Shown one piece after another: positions 22,776-57,531 of a stretch of 64,000 bases of DNA (the stretch's first letter is position 1; every line of letters starts with the position of its first letter). A model generated the notes under the pieces. The model was not told the DNA's origin, searched no databases, and was given only the letters and a program-made list of their open reading frames with translations. The position numbers were made by a program, and so were the translations under genes. Source of the DNA: Phycisphaerae bacterium (lineage in GTDB: Bacteria > Planctomycetota > Phycisphaerae > Phycisphaerales > UBA1924); contig BJHL01000001.1 in the NCBI GenBank assembly GCA_014192545.1, forward strand, positions 544,380 through 608,379. The letters run 5' to 3'.

Positions 22776-24215
22776 TCATCCCCGCGCGGGCGTCAGCAAC
22801 GAGTCTGGATCCTGCAACAACTTGATCACTTCCGCCAGCGCCAGTGCCGCCGTCGCGCCGTCAACAACGCGGTGGTCACACGCCAAGCTCAGCGGCAGCA
22901 GCAGCCCCACGCGGAAGCTGCCCTTGTTCACAACCATCCCTTCGCGACCGCGGCCAACCGCCAGAATCGCGACTTCAGGATAGTTGATGATGGGCGTCGC
23001 GAATCGGCCCGCGTGGCTGCCCACGTTGCTGATCGTAAACGTGCTGCCCATGAGCTGCTCGCGCGTCGCGGTGCGATTGCGTGCCGCATCCGCCACGTTG
23101 CCAATCGCTCGGCTGAGTTCCAGCACGCCCAGTCGATCCGCATCGCGAATCACCGGCACCATCAAACCGTTTTCCGTATCCGCCGCGATGCCCAGGTGCA
23201 CGCTGCGATGTTGATTAATGCTCGCTTCGTAGTTTGCATCGCCAGGCTTTTCGTCTACCGTCGCGTTGAGCGCGCGGAACTGGCTCTGCCCCAGCACGCG
23301 TGCCACCGCACTGGCGACAAACGGCAGGAAGCTCACCTTTTCGCCGCTTGCGGCGGCAAGTTTGCGACGCATGCTGTCGAGGGCCGTCACGTCAGCTTCA
23401 TCCATCACCGTGAAGTGCACGGCTTGGTTCACGCTCTCGCGCAGGCGATTGGCGATCGTGCGGCGCACGCCGCGGAAGGGCACGCGCGTGACTTCATCGG
23501 TAGGCCGCCCCTCCGGGGCGGCAGCGCGACTTGGTGCTGCGGGTGCCGCAGGCTTCGCAACGGGCGCACTGCGAGCGGGCTCAACGAAGGCCGCGGGTTT
23601 GGTAACTGCGGGTTGTTGCTTGGCTGCTGGCGTGCTGCCGCCCCGGAGGGACGGCCCACCGGCAGCTCGCACATCTTTCTCGAGCACGCGGCCACCGATG
23701 CCGCTGCCAGCGATCGCGTCGATATCAACGCCAAGGTCCTTGGCGAGTCGGCGAACGGCGGGCGTAGCGAGGGCTTTGCCGGGAGCAGCGTTGAGTCCAG
23801 GCGTGTCGGCACTCATCTGGCCGACGACGGTGCCAGCGTCTTCGGTGCGCTCTTCAGGCTCGGGCACGTGTTCCATCACGTTGCGCGGGGGCTGAGGCGA
23901 GGACTTGGTTTCGCTCTTGTCGTGCTTGCCGTTGGTGGTGGGCTTGCTCGCCGCTCCGCCGACGTAGGTCACGAGGGCATTGCCGACGTGCAGAATTTCG
24001 CCTTCGCTGCCGTGCAACTGGGCAATCGTGCCATCGCGCGGGCTGGGCACTTCCACCACGGCCTTGTCGGTTTCCATGTCGGCCAGGACATCATGCTCCT
24101 TGACGGCATCGCCCACCTTGACGCGCCACTTGATCAATTCAGCTTCGTGCACGCCTTCGCCCAGATCGGGAAGGATGAAGACGTTGGGATCAGTGGACTT
24201 GCCGGGATGGGCCAT
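22776..24215 (-). CDS. 2-oxoacid dehydrogenase E2 (dihydrolipoamide acyltransferase)
   Basis: This 479-residue protein has an N-terminal lipoyl domain (LPDLGEGVHEAELIKW; lipoyl Lys about 51 in METDKAVVEV), a peripheral-subunit binding domain (ATPAVRRLAKDLGVDIDAIA, about 140-175), an Ala/Pro linker, and a catalytic domain ending in DHRVVDGATAALAL (His about 448, Asp about 452). It forms the core of a pyruvate or branched-chain complex; E1 and E3 are not adjacent. GAGG six bases upstream supports ATG 24215. Two REP palindromes lie within the linker (AAPEGRP and GGPSLRGGST). The reading frame remains open upstream into a second ORF. Confidence 0.92.
   Translation of the reverse strand: MAHPGKSTDPNVFILPDLGEGVHEAELIKWRVKVGDAVKEHDVLADMETDKAVVEVPSPRDGTIAQLHGSEGEILHVGNALVTYVGGAASKPTTNGKHDKSETKSSPQPPRNVMEHVPEPEERTEDAGTVVGQMSADTPGLNAAPGKALATPAVRRLAKDLGVDIDAIAGSGIGGRVLEKDVRAAGGPSLRGGSTPAAKQQPAVTKPAAFVEPARSAPVAKPAAPAAPSRAAAPEGRPTDEVTRVPFRGVRRTIANRLRESVNQAVHFTVMDEADVTALDSMRRKLAAASGEKVSFLPFVASAVARVLGQSQFRALNATVDEKPGDANYEASINQHRSVHLGIAADTENGLMVPVIRDADRLGVLELSRAIGNVADAARNRTATREQLMGSTFTISNVGSHAGRFATPIINYPEVAILAVGRGREGMVVNKGSFRVGLLLPLSLACDHRVVDGATAALALAEVIKLLQDPDSLLTPARG
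23504..23522. repeat. TCC-loop REP palindrome in the E2 linker, copy 1
   Basis: GCCGCCCC, TCC loop, GGGGCGGC: a perfect 8-bp stem. It encodes the peptide AAPEGRP in the E2 linker without breaking the frame. Confidence 0.85.
23637..23655. repeat. TCC-loop REP palindrome in the E2 linker, copy 2 (inverted)
   Basis: GCCGCCCC, GGA loop, GGGACGGC: the same palindrome in opposite orientation with one stem mismatch, 115 bases from copy 1. The two head-to-head copies bracket the Ala/Pro-rich linker segment, a REP-doublet (REPIN-like) arrangement. Confidence 0.8.
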
Positions 24216-24950
24216 GGTGAACCTCGGGGAAGAGTCAATTGAACCGGAGAACATCGATTGCTGCCGACGCAAGGCGCGGCACAAACGTGAAAGGGATTGT
24301 TGGCAGGGTTGGCCGACTTGCCCACGCGTGAGGGGCGTGATTGGTAGATTGGTGAATGTGTGGCTTGCGGGTGCAGGACCACTTGACACGCGTGCGGGCG
24401 CGGGTGGGGTGAGGGTGAGACAGGCAGCGGCGATGAGGGAGGTGAGGAGGGGGTTTCGGGGTTGTGATGAGGGCGCGGGTGTAGTCGCGCGGTTCGTGGT
24501 CGTGGATGGTGGAGTTGGTTGCTCAATTGCAGCCGCTCCGGAGGGGCGGCCTGCCAGATAACAGTCTTGGTGTATTTTGTTGTGGATGAGGCAGACGGCA
24601 ATGTGGGGCTGAGCGGCCCACATTTGCAGTTCGGCGAGGGTTGAGCCGGAGACGCGCGGGGCGAGGTCGAAGAGGTTTTTGTTGAGCTCGTAGAGCCAGA
24701 AGATGCGGCGGAGGTCGAGCGGCGTGAGGTTGACGAGGTAGGCGGGGGTGAGGCAGTCGTGGATGTGCGTGTAGTCGTGTGCCGCGCACTTTGCGAGCAA
24801 ATGTTCTTGGGTTGTTGGAACAAATTCGAGGTGAGGATCGATGAACGGCTGCTTGCGGCTGCGTTCTTCGGTGAAGTAGGGTTGGTCGGGATGCGCGTGG
24901 ATGGGCGCGATGGTGTGGGCGAGAGGATGATCGAACGAGATGATGGCCAT
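24216..24950 (-). CDS. Unknown ORF that reads in frame into E2 without a stop
   Basis: The frame opens at ATG 24950 (MAIISFDHPLAHTIAPIHAH) with AAAGGGG upstream. The first 135 or so residues look like a real His-rich, soluble protein (HDYTHIHDCLTPAYLVNLTP, LRRIFWLYELNKNLFDLAPR). At CYLAGRPSGAAA the sequence enters a REP palindrome and then about 100 low-complexity codons without a stop, running into the E2 start. I infer that REP insertion removed the original C terminus and stop. Whether a fused 725-residue protein is made is unknown; E2 has its own ribosome binding site. Family not recognised. Confidence 0.45.
24532..24550. repeat. TCC-loop REP palindrome at the ORF/E2 junction
   Basis: GCCGCTCC, GGA loop, GGGGCGGC: 8-bp stem with one G-T wobble. 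It coincides with the point where the upstream ORF changes from protein-like to low-complexity sequence. Confidence 0.8.
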
Positions 24951-25067
24951 TGGAAACCCCTTTGCGCGTTGATGCGCGGATGACTGGCGGCAATACGTGC
25001 TGACATGCGGACGACAAGTCGTGAAGTACGCGTTCACGAATGGGTATCGCTGGTTGCTCGCACCGAC

Positions 25068-25097
25068 CATCGCAGAGCCGATGGTCGGTGGCACGTG
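25068..25097. repeat. Isolated hairpin with 12-bp stem
   Basis: CACCGACCATCG and CGATGGTCGGTG are perfectly complementary around the loop CAGAGC. The size is REP-like, but the loop and stem differ from the other families in the window. It might instead be a strong transcript-ending hairpin, although no T-run follows. Confidence 0.6.
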
Positions 25098-25280: not shown

Positions 25281-25523
25281 GGGGTTGGTGTGGGATCGGG
25301 GGTGCGTTGTGATGTGGGGTTGCCGAGCTCGGGTGTTGGGTAAGCGGCGTGGACCATCACTGGTTGGTCGGGCATCAGGCTGCAGAGCTTGCCTGCGAAG
25401 AAAAAGGGCGAGTCCAATTCCTTCGGTGGCGTACAGGTTCGCATTGGCAATGGGCCTGGCGATGATGAGGAATGACGGCAGCAGTTGCCGCAAGCGTCGG
25501 GCTCGGCCTTCTACGCTTGCGGC

Positions 25524-26441
25524 ATGGCTAAACCATTTCCTCTGCATCGCGAGCGCTCGGGCACTTTTGCAAACATCGCCACGATTTTTCTGGAGCAGTC
25601 GCCCAAGCCCGTGGTCGTGCTCGATCATGACTTGATTCGTCGGCTGGATGCAACGCTGACTGCGCTGCCGGGTGATTTGCGAGGATTGGTTTTGGCGAGC
25701 AGCGCGCCGCGAGCATTTGTGGCGGGAGCGGATCTCAAGAGCATTCAGGAGATGGATGACGATCATCTGCATCGCTACTTGGCGTATGCGAGCAGTGTGT
25801 ACATCAAGCTGAGCCGCGTGCCTTACCCCACTGTTGCGGCCATCAACGGTGCAGCACTGGGCGGCGGGCTTGAACTCGCGATGCATTGCGATGGGCTTGT
25901 CGCGGCGCCGGCGCCGAAGGTTGATGGCGTGAGTAAGCCTTATTTCGTTGGGCTGCCTGAAGCGGGGCTGGCGATTTGTCCGGGTTGGGGCGGCACCACG
26001 CTGCTGGCGGCGAGGATTGATCCGGCGACGGCGATTCGTGCGACGGCGGCGGGCAAGCCCATGATGCTGGATGATGCGGTGAAGGCGGGGCTGTTTGATA
26101 TTGTCGCGGCGGATGCCGAAGGGTTGCTGCCTGCGGCGAAAAAGTGGCTTATTGAGCAGGCGCTGAGAGGCCGGGCGGGCAACCGAACGGTGCGTGATGG
26201 TGCGCCGCTCAAGCACAGTGGGCGCAGTGCGATTGCGCAGCGCGTGATTCCGGCGATTGATGCGGCGCGTGACGAAGTGGGCAAGACTGACGCGGGTAAG
26301 GCGGTGCTGATGGCGCTTGATGCGGGCGTGACCAAGGGCTTTGCCGCGTGCTTGCGCGTGGAGCAGGAGCAGCTTGTGCGGCTGCGGAACTTGCCGGCGG
26401 CGAAGGAAGCGATTGCGAATTTCTTCGCGAAGAAGAAGTAG
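25524..26441 (+). CDS. Enoyl-CoA hydratase/isomerase family protein
   Basis: This 305-residue crotonase-fold protein has the oxyanion-hole motifs ASSAPRAFVAGADLKSIQEM and NGAALGGGLELAMHCD, with the characteristic acidic residue in FVGLPEAGLAICPGWGG (about residue 140-155). It likely acts on acyl-CoA in fatty-acid or amino-acid breakdown; the window also has an HMG-CoA lyase, consistent with leucine catabolism, though not adjacent. The C-terminal helical part is longer than in minimal hydratases (about 260). ATG 25524 begins MAKPFPLHRE. Confidence 0.88.
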   Translation: MAKPFPLHRERSGTFANIATIFLEQSPKPVVVLDHDLIRRLDATLTALPGDLRGLVLASSAPRAFVAGADLKSIQEMDDDHLHRYLAYASSVYIKLSRVPYPTVAAINGAALGGGLELAMHCDGLVAAPAPKVDGVSKPYFVGLPEAGLAICPGWGGTTLLAARIDPATAIRATAAGKPMMLDDAVKAGLFDIVAADAEGLLPAAKKWLIEQALRGRAGNRTVRDGAPLKHSGRSAIAQRVIPAIDAARDEVGKTDAGKAVLMALDAGVTKGFAACLRVEQEQLVRLRNLPAAKEAIANFFAKKK

Positions 26442-26456: not shown

Positions 26457-26477
26457 GCACGGGCTTTCAGCCCGTGC
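26457..26477. repeat. TTC-loop REP palindrome between hydratase and rluA-like genes
   Basis: GCACGGGCT, TTC loop, AGCCCGTGC: a perfect 9-bp stem followed by GAACC. It lies in the 47-base space between two convergent genes and may double as a bidirectional terminator structure. The stem-TTC-stem plan resembles the other REP families in the window. Confidence 0.8.
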
Positions 26478-51797: not shown

Positions 51798-53561
51798 ATG
51801 AGGACGTCTGAATCAACCCCATTGTCGCTGCATGTGCAACACGCAACCGCACTCCTTTGCGTCTCGGCGTCACTGAGCCTCTGCCTGCTCGGAGGCTGCT
51901 CGGTCCTGCGAGATCCCTTCGTTCCTCGCGATGACGATTACGCGCGCTCGCTCGCTCTTTCGCGCCTGCGCGAAGTGCCCGCAGCAAACTACACCGACAA
52001 CCGCGCCCCCGCCGTCGATCTCAACAATCGCCAAACCGTCATTGACGCCGTTACCGCCAATCGAATGTCCTATCTCGCCCGCGAACGCGTCGATCTGACC
52101 ATCGAAGATTGCCGCCGCAGTGCAATCGAGAACAACCTCGATCTCAAAGTCTCGCTCATCGACCCGGCAATCGCCCGCGAAACCGTCACCGAAGAAGACA
52201 ACAAGTTCAACAGCCTCTTCTCGCTCGAAGCCAGCTACAACGACAGCCGCCAAAGCACCGGCAGTCGCGTCAGCACGCAAGGCACCAAGCGATTCACCAT
52301 CGAACCCAGCATCCGCATCCCCTCCCGCACCGGCACCACCATCGACGTCGTGCCGCTTCGCCTCGAGCGCACCGAACAACAAAGCGAATTCGCGGAACAG
52401 CCGCAGTTCATTTCGCTGGGTCCCTCGGTCAGCATCAGCCAGCCGCTGCTTCGCGGTGCGGGCCGCCGCGTGAACATGGCCGCGCTTCGCATCGCAGGCT
52501 ACAACGTGCAATCTGCTGAACTGCGTACCAAACTCGAGTTGATTCGCCAACTCAGCGACGTCGACCGCGCGTATTGGCGTCTCTACGCCGCTCGCACAAC
52601 CCTCGACGTGCGCGTGCAACAGTTTGAACTTGCTCAGGCTCAGCTCGAAAAGGCACGCCGCCGCGTGCAAGAGGGCCTGTCGCCACAAGTCGAAGTCGAT
52701 CGCGCCCTCTCAGGCGTCGCCCAGCGGCTCGAAGGCATGCTGCTCGCGCAGAACGATGTCCTCTCGCGCCAGCGCGACCTCAAGCGCATCATCAACAAAC
52801 CCGACCTGCCCATCGACGCCGAAGCCCTCGTCGTCCCCAGCTCACCGCCCGATCCTGTCGAGTATCTCTTTGATCGCACGCAACTGCAAGAGCAAGCCGT
52901 TGCCAATCGCGCCGAACTGCTCGACCTTGAGGTACAACTCGCCGCCGACGCTGCCCGCGTCCTGCTCGAGCGCGACGGCACTCTCCCCGACGTGCGTTTC
53001 CTCGCAAGTTATGGATTTAGTGGCCTCGACGAAAACCCAGGCAGCGCCATCGACAGCATGTTCGATCAGCAAAGCCGCGCATGGAGCATTGGTGCCAGCA
53101 TTAGCACGCCGCTCGACAACGAAGAAGCCCGCGCCCGCCTCCGCCGTGCATTGCTCACGCGCGTGCAGCGCCTTACTAGCAAACAAGCCCGCGAACAAAC
53201 CGTGCGCGTCGAAGTGCTCACGGCTATCGACAACATGACCACTAGCTGGCAACGCATCCTTGCGGCTCGCCAGGCCGCTCTCACCGCCGCCGTCGCCCTC
53301 GACAGCGAACAACGCCAGTTTGATCTCGGCCGCGTCACTTCAACCGACGTGCTCGACCAAGCCAGCGTCGTCGCCGAAGCCCAGCTCGCGGAAGTGAACG
53401 CTCTCGCCGACTACCAAATCGCGCAGATCGATCTCGCCGTCGCCACCGGCACACTGATGGGCGCCACAAAGGTCGATCTCGACCACACGCCGCTGATCAA
53501 CATCAACGACGCCGACCCAACGGAAGAAGTGCCCGGCCAACTCAACACACCACAGCGCTAA
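51798..53561 (+). CDS. TolC-like outer-membrane channel lipoprotein
   Basis: This 587-residue outer-membrane factor has a signal peptide with lipobox LLGGC (about residue 36), and two tandem OEP domains with long coiled coils (QQFELAQAQLEKARRRVQEG, SKQAREQTVRVEVLTAIDNM) and LGPSVSISQPLLRGAGRRVN. Together with the adaptor, ATPase and permease upstream it completes a MacAB-TolC type system in one operon. GGAAAGGG precedes ATG 51798. The cargo is unknown. Confidence 0.92.
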   Translation: MRTSESTPLSLHVQHATALLCVSASLSLCLLGGCSVLRDPFVPRDDDYARSLALSRLREVPAANYTDNRAPAVDLNNRQTVIDAVTANRMSYLARERVDLTIEDCRRSAIENNLDLKVSLIDPAIARETVTEEDNKFNSLFSLEASYNDSRQSTGSRVSTQGTKRFTIEPSIRIPSRTGTTIDVVPLRLERTEQQSEFAEQPQFISLGPSVSISQPLLRGAGRRVNMAALRIAGYNVQSAELRTKLELIRQLSDVDRAYWRLYAARTTLDVRVQQFELAQAQLEKARRRVQEGLSPQVEVDRALSGVAQRLEGMLLAQNDVLSRQRDLKRIINKPDLPIDAEALVVPSSPPDPVEYLFDRTQLQEQAVANRAELLDLEVQLAADAARVLLERDGTLPDVRFLASYGFSGLDENPGSAIDSMFDQQSRAWSIGASISTPLDNEEARARLRRALLTRVQRLTSKQAREQTVRVEVLTAIDNMTTSWQRILAARQAALTAAVALDSEQRQFDLGRVTSTDVLDQASVVAEAQLAEVNALADYQIAQIDLAVATGTLMGATKVDLDHTPLININDADPTEEVPGQLNTPQR

Positions 53562-53574
53562 TTGAGCCAAGCCA

Positions 53575-53625
53575 ATCTATCTCCTGCCTCTCTCTGTGCC
53601 TCTGCGCCTCTGTGGTGAACGAATT
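53575..53625. repeat. Dispersed CTCTGTGCCTCTGCGCCTCT-type repeat
   Basis: This C/T-rich stretch ending in GTGGTGAAC is similar to the one at 9240-9310 and lies between the convergent channel and leuS genes. Confidence 0.45.
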
Positions 53626-53640
53626 GCCCAGCACCCGCGT

Positions 53641-56600
53641 TCACACCACCACATTCACCATCTTCCCCGGCACCGCAATCACCTTCTTCACCGGCTTGCC
53701 CGTCAGCGTCGCAACCACCTCCGCGTGCGCCATCGCAAACGCCTCAAGCTGCTTCGCATCCTTCGCAATGCCAGCGGGCACCACAATCCGCGTCTTCACT
53801 TTGCCGTTCACGCTCACCGGCACTTCAATCTCATCATCCACCAGCATCGCCGCATCAACCTTGGGCCACGCCTGCGTCACGACACTGCCTGTCGCACCGC
53901 TGCGACTCCAAATCTCCTCCGCCAGATGCGGCACAAACGGCCCCAACACAGTCGCAAATCGCCGCATCTGATCGCGCGTCAAACTGCCTTGCCCCTTGTC
54001 CGCGCCAGTGGCCGCGTTGACAAACTCAATCATCGCCGCGATCGCAGTGTTGAACGCCAACCGCTCGATGTCGCTGCCAACTTTCGCAATCAGCCGATGC
54101 AGCAACTTCTCGATCGCGCTCGACGCTTCCGCCGCCGCTTTCACCTCACCCGTGTTTTCATCCACACACACGCGCCACGCCCGCTGCAAGAACCGATAGC
54201 ACCCGCTGATGTCGCGCGGATTCCAAGGCTTGCTCGCATCAAGCGGCCCCATGTACATTTCGTACAGCCGGCACGTGTCGGCACCAAACTCGTTGATCAC
54301 ATCATCAGGATTGATCACGTTCTTGTACCGCTTGCTCATCTTCGTGACAATCGGCATCACCTTCGCGCCCGTCGCGATCTCGACATACTCGCCCTCGCTC
54401 ACTTCCTTCACTTCATCAACCGGCACAATGCTCTTGTCGCTGCGCTGATACGCAAAGCTCGTGATGAGCCCTTGGTGAAACAGTTTGTGGAACGGCTCCT
54501 TGCACGAAACAACGCCCAAATCATGCAGCGCGTTCTGCCAGAATCGCGAGTACAACAAGTGCCCCACCGCATGCTCGCTGCCACCCAGATACAAGTCAAC
54601 GCCTTCGCCTTTGGGTACGTCGCCACTCCGTGGCGACCCCTTCCCTTCCTTCACGGCCTCCGAACCACCACTGATCCCCGATCCCATCCAGTACTTTTCC
54701 GCGTCCGCGCCAACCAGCGCATCCGCATTCTGCGGATCGCAATACCGAATCGCATACCAACTACTCCCCGCACTCCCCGGCATCGTGTTCGTCTCGCGCG
54801 TCACAGGCGTATTCGCGGGCAGCAACGCCGGATCAACTCCCGCCTCGCCCGCCGTCGTCTGCACCCAGTCCTTCGCCTTTGCGAGCAGCGGCTGCGGGTC
54901 ATCGCTCTCCACCGGCGCGTAATCCGCCAGTTCCGGCAACATCACCGGCAAGTGCGAAGCCGAAACCGGATACGCATTCCCCGCCGCGTCGTACACAATG
55001 GGGAATGGCTCGCCCCAGTACCGCTGGCGCGAAAACGTCCAATCACGCAACTTGTAGTTCACACGGCGCTTGCCGATCTTCTTGCCCTCCAGCCATGCGA
55101 TGACCTTCTGCTTGGCTTCAGCAGTGGGGAGGCCGTTCAGCGACACGGTGTCGCTCGCAGAGTTGATTGCGACACCATCGCCACTGAAGCACTCGTTCGC
55201 TTGCTGGACTCCTCGCTCGCTCGTTGCAACTACTTGCACGATCGCCAGTCCGAACTTCTCCGCAAACTCGAAGTCCCGCTCATCATGCCCCGGCACCGCC
55301 ATAATCGCGCCCGTTCCATACCCCATCATCACATAGTCCGCCGCCCACACAGGAATCTGCTTGCCCGTCGCGGAGTTGATCGCATACACGCCCGTGAACG
55401 CGCCAGTCTTCTCCTTGCTTTCCTGCCGCTCCACGTCGCTGCGATTGCGGGCCCACTTCACATACTCAGCCAACTTCGCGCGCGTCGCGTCATCCGCGCT
55501 TCCCGGCGTGTTGACGATCGCGCTGCACAATTCATGCTCCGGCGCAACAACCATGTACGTTGCGCCAAACAACGTGTCGGGCCGCGTGGTGAAAACGCGC
55601 AACGAGGTACGTCGGCTCGCCGAGCCGACCCCTTCCCCTTCTACCACGCCTTCCTTGCGCCAATGACCACCCAAACCAACTTGCTGATCGCTCGGACCCC
55701 TCAACGCCTCCGACACAAACGCCCAGCGATAATCACGCACGCTCGCGCACAACTTCGCCTCGACCGGATTGCGAGCGGTGTATCGTGCAAAAGCTCCAAG
55801 CCATTTCGCGTCGCGAATCACATGGTCGAACGCATCTTCCTGCCACAGCGAGCCCGACATGTTCTCAATCTTGTTAACCTGCGTCGCGCTGAATCGCTTG
55901 ACGCTCGCGACAATGTCGCGCAGTTCGTGTCCGGCACGTGGTCTGATGATCCAGTGCACATGATTGCTCATCACGCACGCCGCAAGCACATCGCAGCGTT
56001 CACCATCAAAGTGCATGAGCGCACGCATAACAATGTCACGCCCCGCGTCATTGAGATGCCATCCGTGCGTGTTCCACGTAACATAATACGTCGCGCCTGG
56101 GACCATCACATGCGGCAAGCTTCGCACTTGCACGATCAATGTGCTCGGGCTTGGTTCACCCGCCGGATACGGATCGCACGGGAGGAAGTCTGCGTATGAG
56201 AGAGGCAATCTCGAGTCGGCATCGAACTGATGCGGAGCGTTGGTAGAAGTGGTAGGAGTCGGCTCGGAGAGCCGACGTACCTCAAACTCAATCTCCGCCC
56301 CCTCACTCCGCCCAATCCACTCCCGCTGCATCGCCTTCGTGCTGCTGGGCCAATCCAATCCCTCCAACTGATCAATCAGCCGATCCGCATACGCCGTAAT
56401 GCGAAACATCCACTGCTTCATCGGCTTGCGCAACACCGCAAATCCGCCGCGTTCGCTCTTGCCATCAATCACTTCGTCATTCGCCAAAACCGTGCCCAGC
56501 TTCGGACACCAGTTCACCGTCGTCTCACTGCGATACGCCAGGCGATAGCTGTCGATGATGCGCCGCTGCGTCGCCGCGTCGATGCTGCCCCACGAAGCAA

Positions 56601-57279
56601 ATACTTGTGCGCGTTCACTCTCGCTTACTTCATCCGCCCGCGGATTGAACCGCACCACGCGCGTGCCGCGCGCAAATGCGTCAACCAGCTCGCTCATAGG
56701 CTTCGCGCAACCAGCCACAGGCGAAACGCCTGTGCTGGTGCCTTCCCCCTCCTTCGCTCCCTCGCTCCTTCGCTCCTTCGCCCCCTCATCAAACCACGCC
56801 CCATACAGCTTCACAAAAATCCACTGCGTCCACTTGTAATACCCATCATCAATCGTGCCAAACTCGCGCGACCAGTCATACGAAAATCCAAATCGCTGCA
56901 ACTGCCGGCGGAAATTGTCAATCGCCGTGCGCGTTGTCTTCGCCGGATGCACGCCCGTCGCTATCGCATACTGCTCCGCCGGCAAGCCAAACGCATCCCA
57001 TCCCATCGGGTGCAGCACGTTGTGCCCCGTCATGCGTTTGTAGCGACAAATGATGTCGGTCGCCGTATACCCCTCCGGATGCCCGATGTGCAACCCAGCC
57101 CCGCTGGGATACGGAAACATGTCCAAGCAGTAATACTTGGGCCGCGACGCATCAAACCCCGCCTGCCCAGGATTCGGCACTTCATACACCTTGGCGTCGC
57201 TCCACACGCGCTGCCACTTGGGCTCCATCGCATTCGCGAACTGAGCGTCATACCGAAATTTGGGAGCATCGTTTGTCAT
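53641..57279 (-). CDS. leuS: Leucyl-tRNA synthetase with in-frame RAYT domain insertion
   Basis: This 1212-residue protein is a class I LeuRS: HIGH motif in PYPSGAGLHIGHPEGYTATD, zinc-less VNWCPKLGTVLANDEVIDG, MQREWIGRSEGAEIEFEV at the start of CP1, editing motifs FTTRPDTLFGATY and GTGAIMAVPGHDERDFEFA, KMSKRYKNVINPDDVI, anticodon and C-terminal domains ending GKMVNVVV. LeuRS is usually 810-950 residues. The surplus is explained mainly by residues about 333-558, a REP-bounded RAYT domain, plus inserts near 165-190 and 875-890 that carry palindromes. The frame is intact throughout, so the gene may be functional. A possible attenuator lies upstream. Confidence 0.95.
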   Translation of the reverse strand: MTNDAPKFRYDAQFANAMEPKWQRVWSDAKVYEVPNPGQAGFDASRPKYYCLDMFPYPSGAGLHIGHPEGYTATDIICRYKRMTGHNVLHPMGWDAFGLPAEQYAIATGVHPAKTTRTAIDNFRRQLQRFGFSYDWSREFGTIDDGYYKWTQWIFVKLYGAWFDEGAKERRSEGAKEGEGTSTGVSPVAGCAKPMSELVDAFARGTRVVRFNPRADEVSESERAQVFASWGSIDAATQRRIIDSYRLAYRSETTVNWCPKLGTVLANDEVIDGKSERGGFAVLRKPMKQWMFRITAYADRLIDQLEGLDWPSSTKAMQREWIGRSEGAEIEFEVRRLSEPTPTTSTNAPHQFDADSRLPLSYADFLPCDPYPAGEPSPSTLIVQVRSLPHVMVPGATYYVTWNTHGWHLNDAGRDIVMRALMHFDGERCDVLAACVMSNHVHWIIRPRAGHELRDIVASVKRFSATQVNKIENMSGSLWQEDAFDHVIRDAKWLGAFARYTARNPVEAKLCASVRDYRWAFVSEALRGPSDQQVGLGGHWRKEGVVEGEGVGSASRRTSLRVFTTRPDTLFGATYMVVAPEHELCSAIVNTPGSADDATRAKLAEYVKWARNRSDVERQESKEKTGAFTGVYAINSATGKQIPVWAADYVMMGYGTGAIMAVPGHDERDFEFAEKFGLAIVQVVATSERGVQQANECFSGDGVAINSASDTVSLNGLPTAEAKQKVIAWLEGKKIGKRRVNYKLRDWTFSRQRYWGEPFPIVYDAAGNAYPVSASHLPVMLPELADYAPVESDDPQPLLAKAKDWVQTTAGEAGVDPALLPANTPVTRETNTMPGSAGSSWYAIRYCDPQNADALVGADAEKYWMGSGISGGSEAVKEGKGSPRSGDVPKGEGVDLYLGGSEHAVGHLLYSRFWQNALHDLGVVSCKEPFHKLFHQGLITSFAYQRSDKSIVPVDEVKEVSEGEYVEIATGAKVMPIVTKMSKRYKNVINPDDVINEFGADTCRLYEMYMGPLDASKPWNPRDISGCYRFLQRAWRVCVDENTGEVKAAAEASSAIEKLLHRLIAKVGSDIERLAFNTAIAAMIEFVNAATGADKGQGSLTRDQMRRFATVLGPFVPHLAEEIWSRSGATGSVVTQAWPKVDAAMLVDDEIEVPVSVNGKVKTRIVVPAGIAKDAKQLEAFAMAHAEVVATLTGKPVKKVIAVPGKMVNVVV
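54619..54637. repeat. TCC-loop REP palindrome within leuS (near residue 885)
   Basis: GTCGCCAC, TCC loop, GTGGCGAC: perfect 8-bp stem, preceded by GGGTAC and followed by CCCCTTCCC as in the RAYT-flanking copies. It encodes part of an extra segment (GSPRSGDVPKGEG) before VDLYLGGSEHA. Confidence 0.85.
55611..55629. repeat. REP palindrome at the downstream end of the RAYT element
   Basis: GTCGGCTC, GCC loop, GAGCCGAC: perfect 8-bp stem, preceded by GAGGTAC and followed by CCCCTTCCCCTT. Confidence 0.9.
56258..56276. repeat. REP palindrome at the upstream end of the RAYT element (inverted)
   Basis: GTCGGCTC, GGA loop, GAGCCGAC, followed by GTACCTC: the inverse of the copy at 55611 with identical stem. 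Confidence 0.9.
56711..56738. repeat. AAA/TTT-loop REP palindrome within leuS (near residue 185)
   Basis: CACAGGCG and CGCCTGTG pair around AAA, extended by CCAGC/GCTGG with one bulge. It encodes STGVSPVAG in the coding sense. Next to it is a tandem CTCCTTCG microrepeat (56750-56785) encoding EGAKERRSEGAKEGEG. Both form an extra segment absent from normal LeuRS. Confidence 0.8.
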
Positions 57280-57300
57280 TGGGGGAATCCAGAAGGCTTT

Positions 57301-57335
57301 GGGGACTGGGGACTGGGGACTGGGGACTGGGCATC
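57301..57335. repeat. Four tandem GGGGACT heptamers upstream of leuS
   Basis: GGGGACT is repeated four times (57301-57328) followed by GGGCATC. It occupies the untranslated leader of leuS. The unit equals the reverse complement of the CCCCAGT-type heptamers elsewhere in the window. Confidence 0.85.
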
Positions 57336-57387
57336 AGGGAAAACCGACCACCGCGTTCGATCACTACTTCGTCACTTCATCACTTCC

Positions 57388-57415
57388 ATAAAAAAAGGCC
57401 CCGCCGAGCGGAGCC
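57388..57415 (-). terminator. Intrinsic terminator between folC and leuS (possible attenuator)
   Basis: On the minus strand GGCTCCGC, loop TCG, GCGGGGCC (one G-T wobble) is followed by seven T. It is 135 bases downstream of folC and 109 bases upstream of leuS, so it may simply end folC transcripts or act as an attenuator for leuS. Confidence 0.8.
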
Positions 57416-57447
57416 TGTTGACACTCATCACCAGTTCGCGCAGAGGG

Positions 57448-57531
57448 CTACCAGCTTCTCACCTGCGTAAGCAGCGAGCGAGGCACCACCAGCCTCATCA
57501 CCAATGCCATGTTGCGTTGCGAACGTTCCAT
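57448..57531 (-). CDS. Possible leader peptide ahead of leuS
   Basis: A 27-codon frame (second in-frame ATG at 57510 gives MALVMRLVVPRSLLTQVRSW) ends 33 bases before the terminator stem. It has four Leu codons among the last 20, two adjacent (Leu-Leu), which would suit leucine-dependent ribosome stalling. No strong ribosome binding site is seen and the frame could be chance. Confidence 0.3.
   Translation of the reverse strand: MERSQRNMALVMRLVVPRSLLTQVRSW

Follow-up and report, generated by a model that had tools for sequence, protein, structure and literature searches.

An in-frame REP-associated tyrosine transposase within a Phycisphaerae leucyl-tRNA synthetase, with related copies inside other housekeeping genes

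The only leucyl-tRNA synthetase (LeuRS) gene found in a Phycisphaerae bacterium holds, in frame, a complete REP-RAYT unit: a REP-associated tyrosine transposase (RAYT) bounded by inverted REP palindromes (Table 1). On sequence evidence, we put the chance at about 80% that this unit is translated together with its host, adding a still competent HUH-nuclease domain to a synthetase that itself likely works. The gene lies in a 64,000-nt stretch of assembly GCA_014192545.1 (contig BJHL01000001.1, positions 544,380-608,379), here called the window; the source genome is labeled G000.

The leuS protein scores 928.8 bits against the bacterial LeuRS model TIGR00396 (leuS_bact, cut-off 548.4). Together with the best structure matches of a modeled fragment, which are to LeuRS and to the LeuRS editing domain, this identifies a bacterial LeuRS that is complete outside the insert. 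The same protein passes NF047646, the REP-associated tyrosine transposase model, over residues 390-519 (82.6 bits, cut-off 80), as well as PF01797 Y1_Tnp (25.2 bits, cut-off 23). The preliminary description of this DNA had reported leuS as one open frame of 1212 codons with a Y1/HUH RAYT domain inside it, and both parts stand: the ORF at 53641-57279 (minus) passes LeuRS and RAYT models alike, and the HVH motif and tyrosine are kept.

Many of the genomes in this work are labeled as metagenome-assembled in their source records, which bears on the alternative that the frame is an assembly or gene-calling artifact, or that this leuS is a second copy in decay. We give that alternative next to no weight. 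A search for a second leuS, proposed in the preliminary description, was run on the 94%-complete assembly and found no other LeuRS, and the single frame is intact. The database cluster that holds the window's protein has 19 member sequences; this protein and the cluster's representative (P0002) are identical at all but 11 of 1212 residues. Independent genomes show the same arrangement, among them G001, of the same genus. An artifact is very unlikely given the sole leuS, this cluster, and the arrangement in G001; a ValRS case (P0032) moreover comes from a record, Phycisphaeraceae bacterium D3-23, that has no such metagenome label.

Table 1. The leuS gene of the window, its embedded RAYT element, and its shorter inserts (positions in the window; residues of the leuS protein).
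Feature	Position	Strand	Remarks
leuS with embedded RAYT	53641-57279	-	1212 aa, single open frame
REP-RAYT-REP element, 680 bp between outer inverted-repeat ends	55604-56283	-	Inside LeuRS editing domain
RAYT core domain, HUH/Y1 fold, residues 386-522	55714-56124	-	NF047646 match, AF2 model, best PDB match 4er8
RAYT N-terminal extension, residues 352-385	56125-56226	-	DPYPxGEPSP motif, present in several other embedded copies
H-V-H-W motif, residues 440-443	55951-55962	-	HUH metal site by homology
YTARNP motif, residues 500-505	55765-55782	-	Candidate nucleophilic tyrosine
Inverted repeat arm, coding-strand 5' end	56241-56283	-	GGTAC tag, palindrome 56258-56276, and pyrimidine-rich tail
Inverted repeat arm, other end	55604-55646	+	Opposite orientation, palindrome 55611-55629
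In-frame insert of 27 aa, LeuRS site B, residues 866-892	54604-54684	-	REP-type palindrome 54619-54637
In-frame insert, ~residues 168-192, without RAYT	56704-56778	-	Palindrome 56716-56734 and tandem 8-bp repeats

The element is bounded by inverted arms of 43 nt each that are 91% complementary and end exactly at 55604 and 56283, where the preliminary description had placed its ends and inverted REP hairpins. Each arm contains a palindrome with an 8-bp stem and a 3-nt loop, and hairpin folding beats shuffled DNA for both (z of -2.83 for the 56241-56283 arm and -2.27 for the 55604-55646 arm). The window's palindrome pattern occurs at seven places in the genome, as does a wider, GTAC-tagged form, and neither has any occurrence in its control (reversed, for the palindrome pattern); two of the seven palindrome places lie at contig ends with an identical 100-base left flank and may be one copy. 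The tag at the foot of the REP, canonically GTAG, is GTAC in the window, GTAG in G001, and GTGG at many ValRS copies. As to the traits of RAYTs, the window has both the H-hydrophobic-H signature (HVH) with a single tyrosine followed by N-P (YTARNP) and the inverted REPs flanking the gene. The gene is not free-standing, being in frame inside leuS; standing free is typical of the RAYTs described so far and does not define them biochemically. No stop codon interrupts the REP palindromes in the frames used, and a weak test at consensus level found no promoter or terminator of the element's own within it.

An AF2 model of the RAYT alone is confident (pLDDT 93.8, pTM 0.87). Its first Foldseek match is 4er8 (E 4.1e-9, TMq 0.76), the crystal structure of E. 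coli TnpA-REP bound to a REP hairpin, and a profile match to 4er8 (E 7.8e-12) likewise assigns the domain to the TnpA-REP fold. For the fused protein, we modeled a 501-residue fragment (leuS residues 256-756), in which the RAYT blocks mostly reach a pLDDT of 92-98 and most LeuRS blocks at least 70. Values fall below 50 in fragment stretches 82-91 and 291-302, which adjoin the REP-coded junctions, and at the cut C-terminal end (490-501). The fragment's pTM is only 0.58, so the mutual placement of the domains is not set by the model. The REP-coded ends are predicted to form flexible linkers that would let host and RAYT fold separately.

The same leuS gene carries two further in-frame inserts (54604-54684 and 56704-56778), which fit the known kind of intragenic REP, or REP-decorated ORF, whereas the RAYT-bearing insert does not. 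At the first of these, site B, a whole RAYT is found in loci L165 and L235 and in database protein P0007. One and the same LeuRS loop thus carries a short REP in the window and a complete REP-RAYT unit in other genomes. Elsewhere in the window, a REP-type palindrome at 23504-23522 (GTAG tag, 8-bp stem, 3-nt loop) lies within an ORF that looks E2 acyltransferase-like by eye (22776-25094, minus), and another at 26458-26476 (8-bp stem, TTC loop, GGTGG tag) lies just past the end of ORF 25485-26441.

A first survey of the order used NF047646 on 151 genomes. Among the matches listed, all 17 frames longer than 500 aa belong to one RAYT subfamily, and the frames of other RAYTs reach 492 aa. The subfamily is also set apart by score among the loci then collected (at least 161 bits versus at most 77). 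A profile of 29 subfamily members (A1), run on 400 genomes of the order with an E threshold of 1e-22, matched 75 genomes in 88 rows, of which 81 are strong (at least 147 bits) and seven weaker; most of the 29 were chosen for long frames, so this survey may favor close kin of embedded copies. Frames of at least 350 aa hold 77 of the 81 strong matches, and 75 of the 81 are embedded in frame in housekeeping genes that could be identified: ValRS (37), RdgB (19), LeuRS (16), MiaA (1), an HscA/Hsp70-like protein (1), and a Kbl-like protein (1). Three are free-standing (in G049, G083, and G100), and three have no clear host (G267, with masked bases; G271, at a contig edge; and G390).

The window's own genome has a second embedded RAYT (locus L006, contig C9, 1201-2397), in a gene for an rdgB/HAM1-type XTP/dITP diphosphatase. 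The host part is best matched by NF011397 (XTP/dITP diphosphatase) in two stretches, under the cut-off, with the RAYT between them (NF047646, 87.3 bits). The genome's two other Y1 matches, in frames of 150 and 231 aa, resemble free-standing transposases of the IS200 type by eye. With this copy in rdgB and most strong matches in identified genes, the leuS case is one instance of a widespread pattern rather than a one-off.

Hosts were assigned by BLAST of both flanks, by identity with an already matched copy, or by reading; the last applies to the HscA-like locus (L216), the Kbl-like locus (L243), and one ValRS locus at a contig end (L250). Of 87 distinct copies (77 from loci, the window protein, and nine database proteins), 76 have both flanks matching one host in the same frame. 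Curated models were passed by all four ValRS frames tried, by LeuRS L165, and by MiaA L172. L216 and L243 matched best to the HscA and glycine C-acetyltransferase models, under the cut-offs, and the RdgB examples stayed under the cut-off of their own model, as expected for a split protein. The RAYTs of L216, L172, and L171 are themselves just under the NF047646 cut-off (75.9, 76.1, and 78.2, respectively). Among the 76 related loci that were measured (the host being identified for 70, with the three free-standing ones and the three without a clear host added), the inverted-repeat score of the flanks exceeded all eight shuffles in 74. In one genome, G011, the leuS-matched stretch of locus L097 contains a TAA and another N-terminal leuS piece lies on contig C33, which may be a split gene or an assembly problem.

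Across 392 genomes of the phylum, strong matches outside the order are mostly free-standing, 11 of the 14 rows of at least 140 bits there being in frames under 300 aa. The phylum survey also found, in long frames, another type of RAYT whose domain contains extra residues; by eye, its flanks resemble AlaRS, PurH, an Eco57I-like enzyme, a DUF1156 methylase, and a monooxygenase-like protein. A search for long proteins, which returned only those of 0.55-1.75 times the query length and is silent on the free-standing share, gave 286 matches, 120 of them listed. Hosts assigned by motif among these 120 are ValRS (60), PriA (34), DUF1156 methylase (12), IleRS (4), AlaRS (2), LeuRS (1), and seven others, two of which (P0012 and P0113) carry PF19302, a domain also present in the IleRS matches. 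At least 40 aa lie on both sides of the RAYT in 118 of the 120. Eight examples were compared with NCBIfam: MetH, AlaRS, PriA, PurH, and IleRS scored above cut-offs, and the DUF1156 methylase P0093, like the HscA-like L216 and Kbl-like L243, had the right best match with a score under the cut-off. In MetH P0019 and AlaRS P0043, the RAYT family is matched in two separate stretches each. A search with the MiaA case as query returned four matches: three have a name or Pfam domains of the MiaA type, and the fourth has an aminotransferase domain.

Two groups of hosts among the 120 listed long proteins deserve separate mention. In the 34 PriA rows, which fall within P0086-P0130, the RAYT lies ahead of the helicase part, and source names include Verrucomicrobiota, Limisphaerales, and Acidoferrum; PriA-RAYT is possibly a fixed fusion in this replication-restart enzyme. 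In P0093 and the other PF06634 rows, the RAYT lies within DUF1156 methylases, with a weak match to an anti-phage-associated DUF1156 model.

Across the subfamily, the first catalytic histidine is present in 87 of 87 copies, the second in 86 of 87, and the tyrosine in 85 of the 86 that have the position; the exceptions are a leucine for the second histidine in L207 and a serine for the tyrosine in L175. The preliminary description had left the choice between a harmless passenger and a still active domain; near-invariant catalytic residues argue against a decayed passenger, and a probably competent domain is the part that we retain. Between G000 and G001, dN/dS is 0.110 for LeuRS, 0.117 for the RAYT, 0.138 for the RAYT N-terminal extension (34 codons), and 0.90 for the linkers, with dS saturated at about 2. 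In 16 closer pairs, it spans 0.083-0.223 for the RAYT (14 pairs giving a value), 0.105-0.382 for the host (15 giving a value; for rdgB, the host part reaches somewhat upstream of where the gene truly starts, redone for one pair), and 0.044-0.615 for the linkers. The linkers are therefore not always neutral.

A comparison with LeuRS of relatives, of the kind that the preliminary description had also suggested, shows the insertion site of the window's RAYT (site A) occupied in G000 and G001 and empty in G002, all of the same genus. When the insert is left out of the LeuRS tree, 18 of the 47 rows, which were partly chosen for being occupied, have a filled site A, and at least 10 changes are needed. 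A quick tree gives 12 changes against a shuffled mean of 15.4, a value as low being reached in 22 of 500 shuffles, which indicates slight clustering. Insertion points within site A lie several residues apart, and the REP types are not the same; site-specific homing is accordingly not favored. The LeuRS of P0003, P0004, P0005, and P0010 also have an extra lineage-specific insert of ~90-110 residues (two blocks) in the editing domain, without a RAYT; in P0060, the RAYT lies near that place, at a third LeuRS site.

P0001, L096, P0003, and P0004 have RAYTs that form one group (100/97), whereas their four LeuRS are rejected as one clade (p-AU 4.5e-50, using L248 for P0003, its RAYT region being identical). 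This conflict could also be explained by gene conversion or by transfer of leuS itself. On the RAYT tree, seven labels require 10 changes where the minimum possible is six, suggesting that host genes were switched, with few of the switches on strong branches: starred branches force only two origins for the ValRS label and one each for LeuRS site A and RdgB. All 34 embedded copies in this tree form one group (88/88), and free-standing members branch outside it. Between L164 and L212, 6 of 97.5 synonymous sites differ in the RAYT versus 28.5 of 158.2 in the rdgB host (Fisher p 0.008 on rounded counts). The tree conflict, the patchiness, and this pair point to past movement; they are no proof of present activity.

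We read these data as reflecting a mobile element that lives as an in-frame domain of host proteins, on the basis of its kept catalytic residues, host-like dN/dS, inverted palindromes, patchy occupancy, and tree conflict. The RAYT likely survives as a passenger, translated within proteins that the cell cannot lose. RAYT molecules would act on single-stranded REP DNA, and the element would occasionally insert, into single-stranded DNA, at a coding loop. Insertions that shift the frame or break an essential enzyme would be lost, and in-frame ones in tolerant loops would stay. Once embedded, the RAYT could do without its own promoter, start, and stop codon, and its imprecise loss would kill the host, making the essential gene a refuge. 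Survival only in tolerant loops, with no imprecise loss, would explain why hosts are mostly housekeeping genes and why the ends form open linkers. The preliminary description had likewise proposed that a REP-RAYT-REP unit inserted at a tolerant leuS loop and was kept as a fused domain; the empty site of a congener, the REP hairpins, and the intact HUH and tyrosine motifs support this, and the confident fold, low-confidence REP-encoded linkers, and host-like purifying selection fit it as well.

PMC8266576 describes TnpA-REP as cutting single-stranded REP with the cut guided by the GTAG tetranucleotide, and one flexible system in which GTAC moves the cut to GA or GT, and GTGG to CC. With GTAC, GTAG, or GTGG as tags, cuts by this guide rule would be plausible here. 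More broadly, we lean, by a little over even odds, toward a class of active transposons that are normally at home inside proteins, where they would be translated as in-frame domains of essential enzymes and in this way both endure and spread, intein-like but without splicing, with the genes for ValRS, LeuRS, IleRS, AlaRS, RdgB, MiaA, HscA, PriA, MetH, and PurH as the refuge. The DUF1156 methylase is probably a non-essential host and as such does not fit the refuge idea.

Host-like purifying selection and near-invariant catalytic residues are also what one would see if the RAYT domain had been domesticated and served its host inside LeuRS, for example by binding DNA or REPs and so coupling translation to genome maintenance, and the similar place of the RAYT in the PriA proteins among the 120 listed may be such a fixed fusion. 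Yet a fixed function predicts one host and steady inheritance, whereas the same subfamily is hosted by unrelated enzymes, site A changes state repeatedly across the LeuRS tree, and congeners differ; we consider domestication unlikely. We similarly doubt that each host received one ancient insertion that was passed on vertically, repeatedly lost, and is inactive now. The single grouping of the embedded copies agrees with such a history, and gaps in occupancy could be losses, but neither the catalytic residues nor dN/dS look relaxed, the RAYT and LeuRS trees conflict, three LeuRS sites and six host genes are in use within the order, and the RAYTs of L164 and L212 are more alike than their host genes.

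The 43-nt inverted arms could pair in the mRNA, and the insert might then be skipped or spliced out between its paired ends, or be removed at the protein level in the manner of an intein. Removal from the RNA would make the reading frame irrelevant, yet nearly all strong matches lie in long frames, and in most distinct copies both flanks match one host in that frame. The five Pfam matches at E up to 0.001 include no intein family or Hint/splicing domain, and Rfam gave no match at E up to 1 over 53500-57500, so that neither an intein nor a catalogued structured RNA was found. The RAYT is, moreover, predicted confidently both alone and within the fragment. Removal of either kind strikes us as a long shot, and a RAYT translated and retained within its host protein as the preferred reading.

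Transposons are thought to break genes; here, a transposase recurs as a clean in-frame domain of needed enzymes with its active site kept. This suggests a new explanation for the long survival of RAYTs, which are single-copy and seldom move, and may point to a route to multidomain proteins. The enzyme family is known; nothing in the literature that we searched describes it as living in frame within many different enzymes. That search, which covered few subscription papers, found no description of a RAYT inside a tRNA synthetase or PriA, in line with the preliminary description, whose author knew of no aminoacyl-tRNA synthetase with a built-in transposase. According to a survey of HuH enzymes (PMC6006769), a few unexpectedly long proteins in each subclass were taken as gene fusions or annotation errors and discarded; the long TnpA-Y1 sequences among them resemble the present proteins in their unexpected length, and surveys of this kind can miss this class. 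Host enzymes can also be mislabeled as transposases: the source name "REP-associated tyrosine transposase" is carried by P0106, which has PurH domains, and by P0023 and P0028, which have tRNA-ligase domains.

Inteins and homing endonucleases are selfish enzymes hidden in essential proteins, with recurrent sites and patchy occupancy. The RAYT inserts are alike in all three respects. Unlike inteins, they have no splicing domain that we found and are predicted to stay in the protein; unlike homing endonucleases, the enzyme is of the HUH type, and insertion points within a loop vary by several residues. Rickettsia palindromic elements (RPEs) code for no enzyme and are about 30-50 aa long, unlike the RAYT insert. 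They are alike as mobile palindromic DNA tolerated in frame in housekeeping proteins. A mention of RPEs is found in PMC3733652.

REPs within genes, including those for tRNA synthetases, are already known from the part of PMC3733652 on "REP-decorated" proteins, where GTAG/CGTC palindromes occur in coding genes, repair genes among them. The inserts described there are small, with 20-30 aa where the REPs are dimers or grouped repeats and 43-82 aa where they form clusters, in contrast to the whole RAYT here, and that section on intragenic REPs reports no transposase inside a host gene. Among the closest known systems are the RAYT/TnpA-REP REPtrons of E. coli and Stenotrophomonas, which, as described in PMC8266576 and PMC2817692, share the HUH/Y1 core, the tyrosine motif, the 4er8-like fold, and inverted REPs at the ends; the perfect 8-bp stem with a 3-nt loop is as described there for the S. 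maltophilia REP. The window's tag is GTAC where that of REPtrons is GTAG, and whereas RAYTs are usually described as free-standing genes, the leuS RAYT lacks its own start and stop and forms a domain of LeuRS.
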